From: Enterobacteriaceae bacterium
GTDB lineage: Bacteria > Pseudomonadota > Gammaproteobacteria > Enterobacterales > Enterobacteriaceae
Direction of reading: 5' to 3'
DNA length: 45,203 nucleotides
NCBI GenBank assembly: GCA_031253755.1
Contig: JAIRVT010000037.1
Span: 1-45,203, forward strand
Shown: in pieces, positions 4,396-26,377 of the stretch
Position numbering within the stretch: the first letter of the stretch is position 1
Layout of the letters: each line of letters starts with the position of its first letter
Translations under genes and position numbers: made by a program
The notes under the pieces: generated by a model
Databases searched by the model: none
What the model was told of the DNA's origin: nothing
Seen by the model: only the letters and a program-made list of their open reading frames with translations

Positions 4396-5241
4396 TTATT
4401 GACGGGCTAATCTTTCCGTTGTTGGTTCAAATGCGTGATTACTGCGCCACGGGTTGATATCCAACCCGCCACGACGGGTATAACGGGCATAAACGGTCAG
4501 TTTTTCCGGGGCACACAATGCCATTAAATCGTTGAAAATACGTTCAACACACTGCTCATGAAATTCATTATGATGACGAAATGAAACCAGATAGCGCAGT
4601 AATTTTTCCTGATCGATTTTACGTCCGGTATAACGGATTTGTACTGAACCCCAATCTGGCTGGTTTGTGATCAGGCAGTTTGATTTCAGTAAATGGCTGA
4701 CCAACACCTCTTCTACAACGTCTCCCGTCGCCGCCTTGTTAAGATAATCGCGATTGAACTGATAATCATCAATGTCAATATCCTGATTATCGATGCAATT
4801 ACCTGCAAAATCGGCGATTGGCTGCTGGCTGAAATCATGCAGGGGGATGAGAACAACGTCAATGTCACCTTTGGCGCAAGCGGATAAATCGTGTTGCAGG
4901 GTTTTTTGTACCGCGCCCCAATCCGCAAAACGGGTCTGGTTAAAGCTGTTCAGGTAAAGTTTAAAACTTTTTGATTCGATCAGATTTTCACTGTCCGCAC
5001 TCAGGCTGACATGACCGATGGCAACCTGCGGAACGCCCCGTGCATTGAGCCAAGACAGCTCATACATCGTCCAGATATCGGCGCCGTGAAACGGCAGGTT
5101 ATCAGGATATAACCCAAGAGGTTCACGGTTCAGGCTGCGGGGAACAGCTTGCAATAAGGTCGGATCATATTTATCGCTGTAGGAAGTTGCCTTGCCCAGA
5201 GTAAGCTGGGCGAGCGCCTGATCATCTTGATACAAAGACAT
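4396..5241 (-). CDS. queF: NADPH-dependent 7-cyano-7-deazaguanine reductase
   Basis: QueF reduces the nitrile preQ0 to the amine preQ1 in queuosine tRNA modification, in the cytosol. The protein has 281 residues, like the long two-domain E. coli type. The family NADPH motif [12 protein letters not shown] is at residues 89-100, and the catalytic Cys189 lies in [15 protein letters not shown] with Asp196 seven residues on. The start has AAGGA five bases upstream. An FAD-linked oxidase gene ends only 16 bases upstream on the same strand, so the two are probably cotranscribed, an arrangement not found in E. coli, where queF lies back-to-back with syd. Confidence 0.96.
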
Positions 5242-5257: not shown

Positions 5258-6958
5258 TTATTTTTGGGTACGGAAATTGGCAGCAGAAAGTAATTTATCC
5301 AACAATGGCGATCTAAACACGCCGTGGGGATCGAATTTCTTTAATGTATTAATTGCTGAATACCAATTATTGTCAACCGGTAATCCGTCAGTCAATGATG
5401 CCGGAATTCTTTGGGTTAATATTTCATTTTCATCCCAAGCGGCATTTTCGCTGTATGCCCAGCCTTTACTCCACTCGACGCGAATAGAAGCGTAAGAATC
5501 ATCAAATTCTTTAAACATCCATTGTTCAAGTTGATGATAAAATTCCGCCGCATATTTTGTGTCCGGCAGCGTTAACACATCAAGCCAGATGGCAACATCC
5601 CACTGTGGCTTATCCGGGCGTGGTCGAATCGCGGATAAACTTGGCACAACTGCATCTGCCTGTACTACTTCCGCTGGCGTATCCAACCCTGAAACCCGGA
5701 TTTCAATCGGCCCGTTAACCGGAAATTTTCCGTGGTTTTGATACTCTTTTATTAATGTTTTCCATTGGGAGTAAAAGCGATTTAAGACTTTCTGAATAGT
5801 ATTCCGGCTGGTCAATATTGCGTAGCCATTGGCAGTCACACGCAATGTGGTGGGTTTAACATAGAGAAGTACGTTTTTGCTCCAGCCCCAGAGATCTTTT
5901 TTGCCTGTCAAAAGGGCGCTTTCTGTAAGACTGAATTGAAGCTGGCCGAATAGTGGAGTAAGCGCAGGCGTGAGATGCGTTATTTCTTTGGCTAAATCAG
6001 AAAGCTGAACAGGAATATTATCCGAAAATGGGTAATTATACGGATGCGTCACGTCAGTACTGGCCTGCGGTTTTTCCGGTGCAATACGCCAGACTTTTAG
6101 CCAAGGCTTCTCTGTGAATGGAAATAAAATAGCTTCGGCTCGGCCACCTGCGTCAAGAAAAGAGCTGAACGTTCTTTTATTTTTGTCGTCCGGTTTTTTG
6201 GCAAAAGTTTCGGCAAAAGTTTCGGCAAAAAGCTCTGTGGCCGAAATATGGGTCATACTTTCGCATTGAAGACGTTGATTTTTTCCTGCCTGAAGTTCGG
6301 CATTTAAAATCAGAGAGCAGCCTAAGTGAACGAGAAGCGGGGCACAATCCGGCTCATTTCGTTTAAAGCGTTTAATGATATATTGCTCACTTTTCTCATC
6401 CCACACGACGGCAGTCAGGGACAATATCGTATTGCTGAGAGAGCCATAAGTATGGCCTGATTGTGGTGTTTCATTCAGTGCTTTAATACTGGTTCCATGA
6501 CCGCCGATGGCTAAAACGCCGCCCAGCGTTAAATCGCCGGGGGCAGGCGTTGCAGTAAAACCAATTCCCTGTTCTTCCATTTTTGTCATGAGTGTTTCCA
6601 TCAATATGCCGGTTTGCGCGGTGACAATGGAATATTCAGGCAAATGTTTGATACTTATTTGGGAGAAATATTGAGTGAGATCCATCAGGAGAGTACGGTT
6701 TGTTGCCTGATTATTCGATGAAATAATCAACGGAGACCAGTTATGTGATTCCCCCACAACCCGCAGTTTATAATTTTGCTTCCCTGCCCAATTAACAACG
6801 GCAAGAACTTCTTTATCCGATTTAGGTATACAGCATTGAATGTTATTTGCTTTAATTTCCTTTGACCAGTTAATAAAGTTGATATTTTTTAATGTGATAT
6901 TATCGGGAAAGTCAATTAAACTTTCTTCATTCTTAATAGCGCTATTTTCTATATTCAT
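5258..6958 (-). CDS. FAD-linked oxidase of the VAO/PCMH family, similar to type II cholesterol oxidase
   Basis: The 566-residue protein has an N-terminal FAD-binding PCMH-type domain (about residues 35-230): [11 protein letters not shown], where His72 sits at the usual site of covalent flavin linkage, then [20 protein letters not shown] (residues 139-158). The C-terminal part, with [17 protein letters not shown] near the end, fits the substrate-binding cap of flavin oxidases for sterols, sugars and lactones. The similarity to bacterial type II (covalent-flavin) cholesterol oxidase is from recall; the substrate is not known. No signal peptide is evident. AAGGA lies 9 bases before the ATG. A 12-bp tandem repeat at 6200-6231 gives the local peptide [11 protein letters not shown]. 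The gene sits between queF and syd, directly upstream of queF, and looks like an accessory insertion. Confidence 0.75.
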
Positions 6959-7020
6959 TATATTGTTTCCTTATATTACTTATTTAAATGAATTTATTAT
7001 CTGAATTAATTTTTAATACG

Positions 7021-7090
7021 AATATATGTCTTTTCATAATAGTGATAGTATCAGTAGTGATTTTTCCTTATCATTTTGGAAAGCGATTTA
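7021..7090 (+). repeat. 70-bp dispersed repeat, copy 1
   Basis: These 70 bases match 26163-26232 in the same orientation at 65 of 70 positions by direct alignment, with no gaps. Both copies lie in gaps between divergently transcribed genes (here FAD oxidase/syd; at 26 kb ygiM/ygiF). The shared core includes TTTTCATAATAGTGA and TTTTTCCTTATCATTTTGGA. There is no long inverted repeat or reading frame, so function is unknown; a conserved promoter/regulatory block or the relic of a mobile element are both possible. Confidence 0.8.
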
Positions 7091-7305
7091 TAAATTAATG
7101 TTATTTCCGCGTTAATTTCTCGAAATTAAATTAACTTATTATTGATAATCATTTCGGTTATTACCGTCAATTCGTATTAACTCTGTATGATATATTACTT
7201 GGCGTGAATTAATTTCCTGCAAACTCTGAATAGTATGAGGTTTCACACTATTATTTTATGAAAGCAGGGTTATTAAAATTAGTTGTCATCTAGCTGAAAA
7301 ATGTA

Positions 7306-22989: not shown

Positions 22990-23092
22990 GGATATCTCCA
23001 AAAGGGTCGTTTTCTTGACTATAACAAGTGATAATACGCATATTTAGGCGGAAGTGGTATCCGGTGAACCGAAAAACGGAGAAAACAGCGTG

Positions 23093-23446
23093 ATGGATAT
23101 CGTATTTATTGAAGAATTAACCGTCATTACCACCATTGGTGCATATGATTGGGAACAAACAATTAAGCAAAAGCTGATTTTCGATATCGAAATGGGCTGG
23201 GACAATAAACGCGCAGCATTCAGTGATAATGTAGAACATTGTCTGGATTATGCCAGAGTGAGTGAAGCGGTACTCCAGCACGTAGAGAATCAGCGCTTTG
23301 CTTTGGTAGAACGTGTGGCAGAAGAGGTCGCTGAGATTTTGCTGAATCAGTTCCATTCGCCGTGGGTCAGAATCAAAGTCAGCAAACCGGGCGCAGTGGC
23401 TTCGGCAAAAAATGTCGGCGTCATGATTGAGCGCAGAGCCAGCTAA
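23093..23446 (+). CDS. folB: Dihydroneopterin aldolase FolB
   Basis: FolB cleaves dihydroneopterin to 6-hydroxymethyl-dihydropterin in folate synthesis. The 117-residue protein shows MDIVFIEELTVITTIGAYDW at the start, then CLDYARVSEAV, FALVERVAEEVAEILL and the C-terminal IKVSKPGAVASAKNVGVMIE. ATG 23093 matches the E. coli N-terminus; upstream in-frame starts add an unrelated leader. Its last codons AGA GCC AGC TAA fall inside a 16-bp sequence (23435-23450) that is repeated exactly at the end of cca, on the other side of the toxin-antitoxin module. Confidence 0.95.
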   Translation: MDIVFIEELTVITTIGAYDWEQTIKQKLIFDIEMGWDNKRAAFSDNVEHCLDYARVSEAVLQHVENQRFALVERVAEEVAEILLNQFHSPWVRIKVSKPGAVASAKNVGVMIERRAS

Positions 23447-23450
23447 CGCT
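23435..23450 (+). repeat. 16-bp direct repeat, left copy, at folB stop codon
   Basis: AGAGCCAGCTAACGCT is identical to 24161-24176. It contains the folB stop codon TAA. The two copies bracket the MazEF module with a period of 726 bases, which suggests that the module entered at a terminator once shared by convergent folB and cca. Confidence 0.9.
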
Positions 23451-23474
23451 TATTGTCAGAGAGAGCGGTTAATC

Positions 23475-23513
23475 TTGCCATTCTCATTGATGAATATTTA
23501 TACTATGTATAAA
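23475..23513 (+). promoter_or_regulatory. Promoter and operator of the toxin-antitoxin module
   Basis: A -35-like TTGCCA (23475-23480) and -10-like TATACT (23499-23504) are spaced 18 bases apart. The -10 is embedded in a perfect inverted repeat TTTATAC-TAT-GTATAAA (23497-23513). Antitoxins of this family repress their own operon through such palindromes, so autoregulation is likely. Confidence 0.7.
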
Positions 23514-23533
23514 CATTTGTTATGGAGGTTTGC

Positions 23534-23776
23534 ATGTCTATCGCAATTAAAAAGTGGGGAAATAGTCAGGGGATTATCATACCCACGCATATTCTCAATA
23601 AGATCGGTCTGAAGATTGGTGAAGCATTGGATATACAGGTTGATTCTGGAAAGATTATTTTGACACCCAAGCAAAAAAGGAAAATTTTTTCTGAAAGTGA
23701 TCTGCTTGCAGATATTAACGAGCATAACGCTCATTCAGATGAATTAGCAATCATTACCAGTACAGAATCAGGATGA
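23534..23776 (+). CDS. MazE/AbrB-type antitoxin
   Basis: The 80-residue product begins MSIAIKKWGNSQGIIIPTHI, the swapped-hairpin AbrB/MazE DNA-binding domain, with LNKIGLKIGEALDIQVDSGK completing it near residue 45. The acidic C-terminal tail (SDLLADINEHNAHSDELAII) is the expected toxin-wrapping segment. ATG 23534 is chosen because GGAGG lies 5 bases upstream; an earlier ATG at 23522 overlaps that site. Its stop codon overlaps the toxin ATG by 4 bases. The antitoxin should neutralise the downstream RNase and repress the promoter palindrome. Confidence 0.88.
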   Translation: MSIAIKKWGNSQGIIIPTHILNKIGLKIGEALDIQVDSGKIILTPKQKRKIFSESDLLADINEHNAHSDELAIITSTESG

Positions 23777-24129
23777 CTATGATGCCTTACCTGCCTAAAA
23801 GAAATGACATCATTCTCCTTGATTTTGAACCCGTTAAAGGAAAGAAAATAGGTAAATATCGGCCTGCGTTTGTTCTTTCAAGTGAGGAATATAATAGAAA
23901 AACAGGATTGGTTATTATATGCCCAATCAGTACCAGTATTCGTGGTGGATTAACTGAAGTACCGATCAATAATCTGGAAAAAACGAGCGTAGTTGCGGCA
24001 AGTATCATTCAAACATTGTCATGGAAAGAACGAAAATCTCAGTTTGTCACTGAAGCTGGACCCGATGTAATGGATGACGTTTTGGCTCGGTTGATTCCGC
24101 TGATTGGTGCAAATCATTTCTTCGAATAA
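23773..24129 (+). CDS. MazF/PemK-type endoribonuclease toxin
   Basis: A 118-residue MazF-fold protein: PKRNDIILLDFEPVKGKKIG then KYRPAFVLSSEEYNRKTGLV, CPISTSIRGG and IIQTLSWKERKSQFV. The RPAFVLS stretch is the family hallmark, and the ISTS and QTLSWKER regions hold the predicted RNA-cleavage residues. MazF toxins cut mRNA at short sequences and halt growth. The ATG at 23773 overlaps the antitoxin stop (ATGA); ATGs at 23779 or 23782 are better spaced from AGGA and equally possible. The exact subfamily (MazF, ChpB or PemK) is unsettled. The pair occupies the folB-cca interval that holds uppP in E. coli. Confidence 0.88.
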   Translation: MTMMPYLPKRNDIILLDFEPVKGKKIGKYRPAFVLSSEEYNRKTGLVIICPISTSIRGGLTEVPINNLEKTSVVAASIIQTLSWKERKSQFVTEAGPDVMDDVLARLIPLIGANHFFE

Positions 24130-24160
24130 CCTCCCACATCATGGCAAAAGCTAATCTTGA

Positions 24161-24176
24161 AGAGCCAGCTAACGCT
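24161..24176 (+). repeat. 16-bp direct repeat, right copy, at cca stop codon
   Basis: Identical to 23435-23450. Read on the minus strand it contains the cca stop codon TAG. Here it forms the left part of an intact hairpin (24161-24182); the left copy has only half of that hairpin. Confidence 0.9.
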
Positions 24177-24182
24177 GGCTCT
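24161..24182. terminator. Terminator hairpin at the end of cca and the mazEF-like module
   Basis: A perfect 9-bp stem, AGAGCCAGC and GCTGGCTCT, with loop TAAC. It overlaps the last codons of cca. It serves two converging transcripts; U tracts are weak on both sides. Confidence 0.65.
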
Positions 24183-25353
24183 GTTGCCAATCAGTTATAG
24201 CAGCCTGACGTTGCCGTTCTAATTCAGTGCGGATTTCCGCGCCCTGAAAACCTCTGGCAATAATCTGCTGAACACTGACTTGGCCTGCAATCCTAAAAGC
24301 TTCCCGCAAATAGTTTTCAGCGGGATAAACAGGCGTTTTTAACTCAGTGCCAGCACTGGCTTCTGCTTTACTACAAACAAGTAACTGTTCAAGGCGCTGC
24401 GGTTTCCGCCATACATCAATGGCATTAAACAACGCCAGCACTTTTTTTGCTGATAACGGCTCTGCTGATAACGGCTCTGCCGATAGCTGTTTTGCTGAAT
24501 GCACCCAATCGACATATTGCGCGGCGATACAGGCAAGATCACGCGCTGAATTGGGAATACGCAGCCGTTCGCACATTTGTTTAATCTGCGTGTTTCCAAT
24601 GTGAATACACAGTGAGGCAAACCGGATATCGCTATCCGCACTCAGATATGTGGACATTTTTAGGACGTTGAGAGAGTGAACCGCCGAATCGTTGTCCATC
24701 GTCTTCATACCGAACAGATTATCGATTTCCGGGAACAGAATGGCCAGCGCGCCACAGCCACGTAAAACCTGAAAGTAGACCTGCGGTGATGATGACGCGA
24801 GCGCTTTTTCCGTTTCTTTCCAGACCCGTTCAGGCGTTAATGAAGATAATTCACCACTCGCGGTCATTTTGGCGATTAGCGCCTGTGTTTCAGCAGCGAT
24901 GGAAAAACCGGCGTGAGCAAAACGCGCGGCAAAACGCGCCAGACGCAGTACACGTAACGGATCTTCGGAAAATGCCGCAGAGACATGGCGCAGAATACGG
25001 TTGTTCAGATCATCAACACCATGATAGGGATCGATCAATTCACCATCAGGGGTTTGGGCGATGGCGTTAATCGTCAGATCGCGGCGCAACAGATCGTCCT
25101 CTAATGTCACATCAGGCGCTGCATAACAGATAAAACCGGTATATCCCTGACCGGATTTTCGCTCGGTACGTGCTAACGCATACTCTTCATGGGTATCAGG
25201 ATGCAGGAAAACCGGGAAATCTTTCCCGACCTGTTGATACCCTTGTGATAACAGCGTTTCCGGGTTGCCTCCAACGATAACCCAGTCTCGTTCTGTCACC
25301 GGCAAATTCAGCAATTGATCCCGAACGGCGCCGCCGACTAAATATACTTTCAC
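24169..25353 (-). CDS. cca: CCA-adding tRNA nucleotidyltransferase with a degenerate HD domain
   Basis: Cca adds or repairs the 3' CCA of tRNAs. The class II nucleotidyltransferase head is intact in most motifs: YLVGGAVRD (4-12), [11 protein letters not shown] (90-100), [15 protein letters not shown] (131-145) and ERVWKE. The carboxylate pair is E21/D23 ([10 protein letters not shown]), where E. coli has two Asp residues. The C-terminal HD phosphohydrolase domain is damaged: E. coli LCHDLGKG reads LCIHIGNT here (residues 248-255), and about 25 residues including HHGH, plus a WHPE segment before it, are missing. A linker of four imperfect five-residue repeats (SAEPL type, DNA at 24449-24493) follows. 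At 394 residues it is shorter than E. coli (412). CCA addition is probably kept; phosphodiesterase and phosphatase activities are probably lost. Confidence 0.93.
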
Positions 25354-26009: not shown

Positions 26010-26377
26010 TCTGTTTTCAACTGTTTTGGTTGGTGTATGAGGTTATCGTGGTTCAAACTACTCAATCTGATAGTAAAGAGTTAAGTTTGCGGGTGCAATC
26101 AGTAAACCAGAATGAATCTGACTTAACAGTCCGAATAAAGCCATTGTTAGGTTTTTTTTGAGAATATATGCCTTTTCATAATAGTGAGGGTATCAGCAGT
26201 GATTTTTCCTTATCATTTTGGAAAGCTATTTATTTACTGAAGTAACATCATCATTGTTGAGATAACAAACTATTGTGGTTTATTTCCTGAAAATACATGG
26301 TTAAATCATTACGGTGGTTAAACCATCAGGATTGGAGTTATACATGATCCTTCCAGTGCCAATTAAGAGAGAAAAAT
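26010..26377. other. Intergenic region between ygiM and ygiF with a dispersed repeat
   Basis: A 368-base AT-rich gap between divergent genes. It contains copy 2 of the 70-bp repeat at 26163-26232 and AAGAGAG before the ygiF start. I see no convincing reading frame. Confidence 0.55.
26163..26232 (+). repeat. 70-bp dispersed repeat, copy 2
   Basis: Sixty-five of 70 positions match 7021-7090 without gaps. It lies 153 bases upstream of ygiM and 145 bases upstream of ygiF. Flanking sequence is unrelated to that of copy 1 apart from a few AT-rich bases. Confidence 0.8.

Follow-up and report, generated by a model that had tools for sequence, protein, structure and literature searches.

Solitary toxin-antitoxin (TA) modules are common in bacterial chromosomes, and a 2020 review of TA modules, which we take to be that of Fraikin et al., touches on how they come to be there. 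In passages of this review (PMC7167474), the way in which solitary TA modules integrate is described as unelucidated. The question arises in concrete form in the enterobacterial DNA analyzed here (a stretch of 45,203 nucleotides, hereafter the window), in which a mazEF-like gene pair stands between the convergent genes folB and cca and is bounded on both sides by the same 16 bp. Did the pair enter the chromosome at this point, and, if so, by what route? A literature search covering titles and abstract openings yielded, among the matches listed, no report of a solitary TA module whose target had been duplicated.

The neighboring genes are folB (dihydroneopterin aldolase; positions 23090 to 23446, plus strand; Pfam FolB, 2.3e-32; NCBIfam PRK11593, above cut-off) and cca (tRNA nucleotidyltransferase; 24169 to 25353, minus strand; NCBIfam PRK10885, 2.2e-159, above cut-off). 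The 16-mer AGAGCCAGCTAACGCT was found in exact copies on the plus strand at 23435 to 23450 and 24161 to 24176, 726 bases apart. As the original prediction had described, the left copy contains the folB stop codon (TAA, 23444 to 23446), and the right copy, at the end of cca, contains the stop codon of that gene on the minus strand (24169 to 24171). The DNA between the two copies (710 bp; 23451 to 24160) has a G+C content of 0.376, compared with 0.457 in folB, 0.497 in cca, and 0.48 in the window. A 15-bp tandem repeat within cca (24448 to 24479) gives rise to a repeated SAEPL stretch in the protein.

The inserted DNA is occupied by two genes. The mazE-like antitoxin gene of the AbrB/MazE family (23534 to 23776, plus strand) was given the ATG start at 23534, which was taken from the sequence and is preceded by GGAGG at 23524 to 23528; its product, translated from 23522 for the search, matched Pfam MazE_antitoxin (PF04014; 2.3e-12; 47.1 bits against a cut-off of 24.7) and the MazE chains of the structures 1ub4 and 1mvf. 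The mazF-like toxin gene of the PemK/MazF family (23773 to 24129, plus strand) overlaps mazE by 4 bp, and its product matched Pfam PemK_toxin (PF02452; 8.4e-22; 77.9 bits against a cut-off of 23.1) and MazF structures (e.g., 5ck9 and 1ub4). By protein families and gene order, the pair is a predicted MazEF-like type II TA module, sharing with MazEF/ChpB-type modules a short operon in which a MazE-family antitoxin gene comes first and a PemK/MazF toxin gene second, with a 4-bp overlap. It differs from MazEF and ChpB of Escherichia coli in that all NCBIfam matches of both proteins fell under the curated cut-offs (e.g., 81.8 bits for the MazF-like protein against the E. coli MazF equivalog PRK09907, whose cut-off of 120 was not reached). 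Unlike E. coli mazEF, which adjoins relA, it is solitary between folB and cca. A promoter-like sequence (TTGCCA-18-TATACT; 23475 to 23504, plus strand) lies approximately where BLAST homology to mazEF of two other loci (L034 and L035) starts; promoter-like sites in the region numbered 3, against 3.2 expected in shuffled sequences. No integrase or transposase was recognized among the open reading frames and Pfam matches of the unit, in agreement with the original prediction: mazE and mazF occupy the 710 bp, and the three further short open reading frames (61 to 78 amino acids) are too short for an integrase.

The right copy of the repeat is, as had been predicted, half of an intact hairpin (24161 to 24182; 9-bp arms and a 4-nt loop). 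This perfect 22-bp hairpin had no counterpart in 100 shuffles, even in a search allowing up to three mismatches, and its predicted folding energies on the two strands are -17.3 and -21.4 kcal/mol (z, -3.3 and -4.5). It is intact at the right copy only; at the left end of the insert, it is gone after insertion (z, +1.0). When the two flanks are joined, the repeat forms part of the perfect hairpin AGAGCCAGC-TAAC-GCTGGCTCT, which the surrounding bases lengthen to 20-nt arms that are 80% complementary (23424 to 23443 and 24174 to 24193). A similar hairpin is present in a sister species (L009 of G013; -21.9 kcal/mol; z, -4.5). The original prediction called this structure a shared terminator. The strong hairpin between convergent genes bears out one half of that description, and it is from this position that we infer the label; however, there is no T-run on either side of the hairpin, and a terminator scan of positions 23000 to 24400 did not list it.

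Could the 16-bp repeat have arisen otherwise than by duplication of a target? Only CTAA (4 bp) needs to be doubled for both genes to retain their stop codons, and 12 of the 16 bp are thus extra, which places the repeat beyond chance: the right copy also matches the 8 bases upstream (folB codons), and the left copy the 4 bases downstream (cca codons in the joined site), with a chance of ~6 in 10^8 for 12 such base matches by simple arithmetic. These extra matches weigh directly against the idea that only the 4-bp stop overlap was doubled and that the hairpin arm was then selected anew beside cca. A hairpin arm could indeed be under selection, and the right arm lies within cca codons; nevertheless, 8 bases before the overlap in the right copy and 4 after it in the left copy match exactly, and the latter 4 bases lie outside folB and in no intact hairpin. 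We find re-selection of the arm barely credible. Another candidate, a dispersed terminator repeat, which the original prediction had named as a danger to its reading, was rejected on finding just two exact copies of the 16-mer in the assembly (3,015,481 bases in 107 contigs; 83% complete). Across the window, no third copy with up to three mismatches was found; among 100 shuffles, 2 contained at least two loose matches of this kind. The other exactly repeated 16-mers of the window belong to tandem runs and to one dispersed 82-nt pair, and none of them flanks a gene pair in like manner. The copies of the 82-nt repeat (7010 to 7091 and 26152 to 26233) are 89% identical; similar letters occur in L035, and the repeat is perhaps a MITE of the genus.

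The folB-cca junction was compared across the genus, as the original prediction had proposed. FolB was present in all 30 genus genomes searched, with cca beside folB in each. Stretches of ~2.8 to 3.4 kb from the 29 other genomes contained no mazE or mazF match at folB-cca (0/29), whereas the original prediction would have been refuted by the module standing there in all relatives. In 24 of these, 56 to 145 bp separate the two stop codons, and many of the 24 have a different hairpin (AAAAAGCGTCCC...). In the remaining five (G025, G013, G007, G006, and G012), the site is single-copy and the stops have 4 bp in common; removing 726 bp (i.e., the insert and one repeat copy) from the window restores exactly this overlap, so that folB and cca share one end. 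The joined flanks of the window aligned without gaps to all five at 75 to 79% identity; the alignment spans all 154 bases in four species and 151 of them in the fifth. These empty sites are those of sister species that differ by 21 to 25% at the site. A tree built from FolB, Cca, EttA, FklB, and HemN pieces (30 genomes; HemN in 29) grouped the genome of the window (G000) with exactly these five species (support, 100). The empty site in the five sisters, the gapless joined flanks, and the presence of the module in 1 of 30 genomes support the reading that mazEF was inserted here with duplication of a 16-bp target, as had been proposed.

Since the tree places G000 with the five empty sisters, a single gain in its lineage is the simplest history. 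The opposite course, in which the module is ancestral and the relatives deleted it by way of the 16-bp repeats, has in its favor that an exact deletion of this kind would restore the empty site, but it requires a gain and, within the nearest clade, no fewer than two losses. It also sits poorly with the absence of the module from 29 of 29 relatives, 24 of which have a different junction, with the lower G+C content of mazEF, and with the location of its nearest kin elsewhere in the genus tree and at another site. We regard ancestral presence as very improbable. The original prediction further noted that the site corresponds to the place of uppP in E. coli. Elsewhere in the family this position is indeed usual for uppP, which was present in the folB stretch at 26 of 27 loci from other genera, but in the genus itself uppP was absent from all 30 folB-cca loci. 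(A folB match was present in 156 of 198 genomes in all; the 27 loci are those that matched best among the 153 such genomes outside the genus, and they include the locus that supplied the uppP query [L228; Pfam BacA, 1.3e-84].) Because uppP is lacking from every genus locus, replacement of uppP by mazEF was rejected; the simplest reading is that uppP left this place before mazEF arrived.

The closest relatives of the module provide a second insertion for comparison. The nearest MazF proteins found (88% identity in G023 and 85% in G009) are encoded between the divergent genes ettA and slt, names that were assigned by reading the sequence, and G010 has the same ettA-slt mazEF with an internal deletion. 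These three genomes form a clade (support, 100), and its neighbors G014, G027, and G002 are empty at ettA-slt (read in 29 of the 30 genomes, with L083 left out). The insert is bounded by CTTTTGATTA, a direct repeat of 10 bp exact, or 13 bp with one mismatch in G023, and the empty sites of G027, G002, and G014 contain one copy of it. At the filled site, the left side reads TTTACCTTTTGATTA and the right side CTTTTGATT(A or C)AAAAATC; the empty G027 site reads TTTACCTTTTGATTAAAAAATCG. By itself this short repeat is not beyond chance (p of ~0.02 in one scan of L034; 0.08 to 0.12 in a scan with wider flanks of L129, L130, and L139), and the case for duplication at ettA-slt therefore rests on the empty site. 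It seems that this insertion also doubled target bases, of unrelated sequence and with other unit ends. The two insertions thus resemble each other in having the most closely related modules and a direct repeat that is single in empty relatives, and they differ in the target, in the repeat sequence, and in the insert, which is longer at ettA-slt.

The ettA-slt interval of G000 itself (L074) contains no mazEF, but it includes a stretch of 64 bp that shares 91% identity with the left portion of the insert in G023, G009, and G010. Among the 30 genus genomes, this stretch was found in these four only, once in each; perhaps a module once stood at this hot spot in G000 as well and left the stretch behind. 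Beyond the genus, a mazEF pair on a megaplasmid of Xenorhabdus bovienii CS03 (NZ_FO818638.1) is 75% identical at the DNA level across 90% of the insert (710 bp); unlike the window module, it is plasmid-borne, with rdgC on one side and a DNA methyltransferase gene on the other. To judge from this hit and from the original prediction, which named Xenorhabdus among the genomes to be aligned, the genus is presumably Xenorhabdus. An 8-bp repeat there (TAGCCCCT), at a spacing of 722 bp, is within chance (p of ~0.59). Vibrio plasmids encode relatives at ~70% protein identity. Carriage by a phage was considered and set aside: no MazF relative was found in viral contigs by a search sensitive to close relatives only, and 21 phage records had a match, all at <60% identity.

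By what route did the unit arrive? We think it quite probable that a promoter-plus-mazEF unit devoid of mobility genes of its own inserted a single time, in the lineage of the window, where folB and cca overlapped by 4 bp. The layout implies that the 16-bp duplication let both genes retain their stop codons and that the one intact hairpin, which once ended both, now stands between mazF and cca; folB, having lost half of its hairpin, may be read through into mazEF.

The geometry of the target invites the thought of a tyrosine-type integrase acting in trans, which would have joined a mazEF circle to the folB/cca hairpin with the 16-mer as the shared att core. The identity is core-sized, lies at the 3' end of a gene, and falls inside a dyad-symmetric target (arms 80% complementary); a 16-bp duplication at such a dyad is a possible integrase product; and the gene end was regenerated at insertion, as integrases do. 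Against this stand the lack of any recognized integrase in the unit, the bounding of close module relatives elsewhere by other sequences, and the absence of a third 16-mer copy from the 83% complete assembly. The 22-bp hairpin, used as the query in place of the bare 16-mer, had 0 exact matches in viral contigs. The differences in repeat sequence and unit length between folB-cca and ettA-slt also argue against a shared att core, and we regard an integrase as possible but doubtful. Clean direct repeats of the target, found also at the second mazEF insertion, would suit a transposase in trans that moved the unit as a MITE-like element with a 16-bp target duplication. Yet none of the four inverted-repeat pairs detected in positions 23300 to 24300 is at the insert ends, the repeat lengths differ (16 versus 10 to 13 bp), and no kinship is apparent between the unit ends of folB-cca and those of ettA-slt, all of which makes a MITE-like element unlikely.

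A third route would start from a stalled fork or a staggered break within the hairpin, at which a fragment of DNA was captured and a 16-nt stagger filled in. The unrelated repeats and ends at two kindred insertions, together with the failure to find an integrase, inverted ends, or an attP-like copy, favor such a capture over a fixed att core and over a MITE. Enterobacteria are not known to join ends efficiently, and break capture must therefore be rare; because the module is addictive, a rare event of this kind would be more readily retained. Whether the unit entered by rare capture with fill-in rather than through a dedicated recombinase is, in our judgment, evenly balanced, with capture as the reading that we carry forward.

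Do these footprints reflect a general habit of such modules? PemK/MazF matches numbered 38 in the genus, in 21 of the 30 genomes, and they include three sets of kindred modules at different loci: L133 with L143 and L144 (86% over 667 bp), L125 with L126 and L127 (88 to 90% over 656 bp), and L146 with L145, L138, and L135 (79 to 85% over ~630 to 660 bp). In the three sets, DNA homology stops at or within ~5 bp of the toxin stop codon, with the exception of L146 and L138, whose match ends ~25 bp before it. These ends and the two readable target duplications led us to a broader proposal, i.e., that MazEF units from promoter to stop (~655 to 730 bp) move repeatedly in the genus as minimal cassettes through one unrecognized trans-acting process, doubling ~10 to 16 bp of target and settling in intergenic ends of core genes. 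We advance this only very tentatively and, as matters stand, consider it improbable. A direct-repeat scan of 30 of the 38 PemK matches gave 5 of 30 loci with p of <0.05, against ~1.5 expected; one of these five is the window (L131) and one (L149) was misread, as were at least five loci in the scan through contig ends or the wrong strand (L128, L134, L137, L149, and L151). The scan is no proof of a general rule. A second scan, of 30 loci inside and outside the genus (L103, L105, and L116 were dropped as contig-end artifacts), gave nothing firm outside the genus save an FCPU426 contig with a long repeat. In that contig (L107), a 110-bp stretch is repeated (96% identity; 4579 to 4688 and 5347 to 5456) around a mazEF-like pair; the first copy contains the last part of the open frame preceding the pair, and the second follows the toxin gene, making this a far longer duplication of a gene end around a TA pair. 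A 64-bp repeat (95%; 1093 to 1155 and 1980 to 2043) flanks the mazEF pair of L125 (G016), which has a phage tail gene as its neighbor (PHROG baseplate hub, 6.2e-27; Pfam Phage_base_V, below cut-off), and a different mazEF lies beside a homologous piece of this tail gene in L132 (G020).

Several other intervals of the genus accommodate such modules. Between the convergent genes hemN and glnG (L186 to L214; found in 29 of the 30 genomes, with no glnG within the locus in 9), mazEF is present in G024 and G008, and several genomes have other inserts; this interval is likely a hot spot for TA modules. Its length ranges from 1 to 1,260 bp in the 20 genomes with both ends read. In L195, it contains a PIN-domain gene (PIN, 1.4e-14) with a small upstream gene that has no Pfam match, and other genomes have apparent remnants of the PIN-domain gene and its small partner. 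The flanks of fklB, examined in the 30 genomes (the rplI side was unread in 5), contain mazEF or remnants in both rplI-fklB and fklB-cysQ. The mazEF of G021 (L146) is on the opposite side of fklB from its kin in G016, G013, and G025 (L145, L138, and L135), and on the rplI-fklB side, several relatives seem to have mazEF remnants. At the mazEF sites of hemN-glnG, fklB-cysQ, and rplI-fklB, no clean target duplication was readable.

A comparable case in E. coli is ccdO157 at folA-apaH, which is likewise a type II TA module standing alone between two convergent core-chromosome genes. Passages of the review cited above (PMC7167474) mention REP sequences in the folA-apaH interval. Strains K-12 and MS 69-1, which lack ccd, instead have a 77-bp spacer between folA and apaH. 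In strain SSGw1, the only ccd-bearing strain examined at base level among 60 rows listed, no repeat of 8 bp or more was found around ccd between the 110 bases to the left and the 150 to the right. The absence of a repeat at this module indicates that the duplication footprint is not general.

The folB-cca event can nevertheless be read to the base: the empty site, the insert, the target duplication, and the reason that both neighboring genes survived are all visible. It is a clean footprint of the entry into a chromosome of a TA pair without moving machinery of its own. Together with ettA-slt, it provides two kindred insertions in one genus, each placed on the tree, and these two placed insertions make an integrase, a transposase, and break capture testable against one another by sequence comparison.
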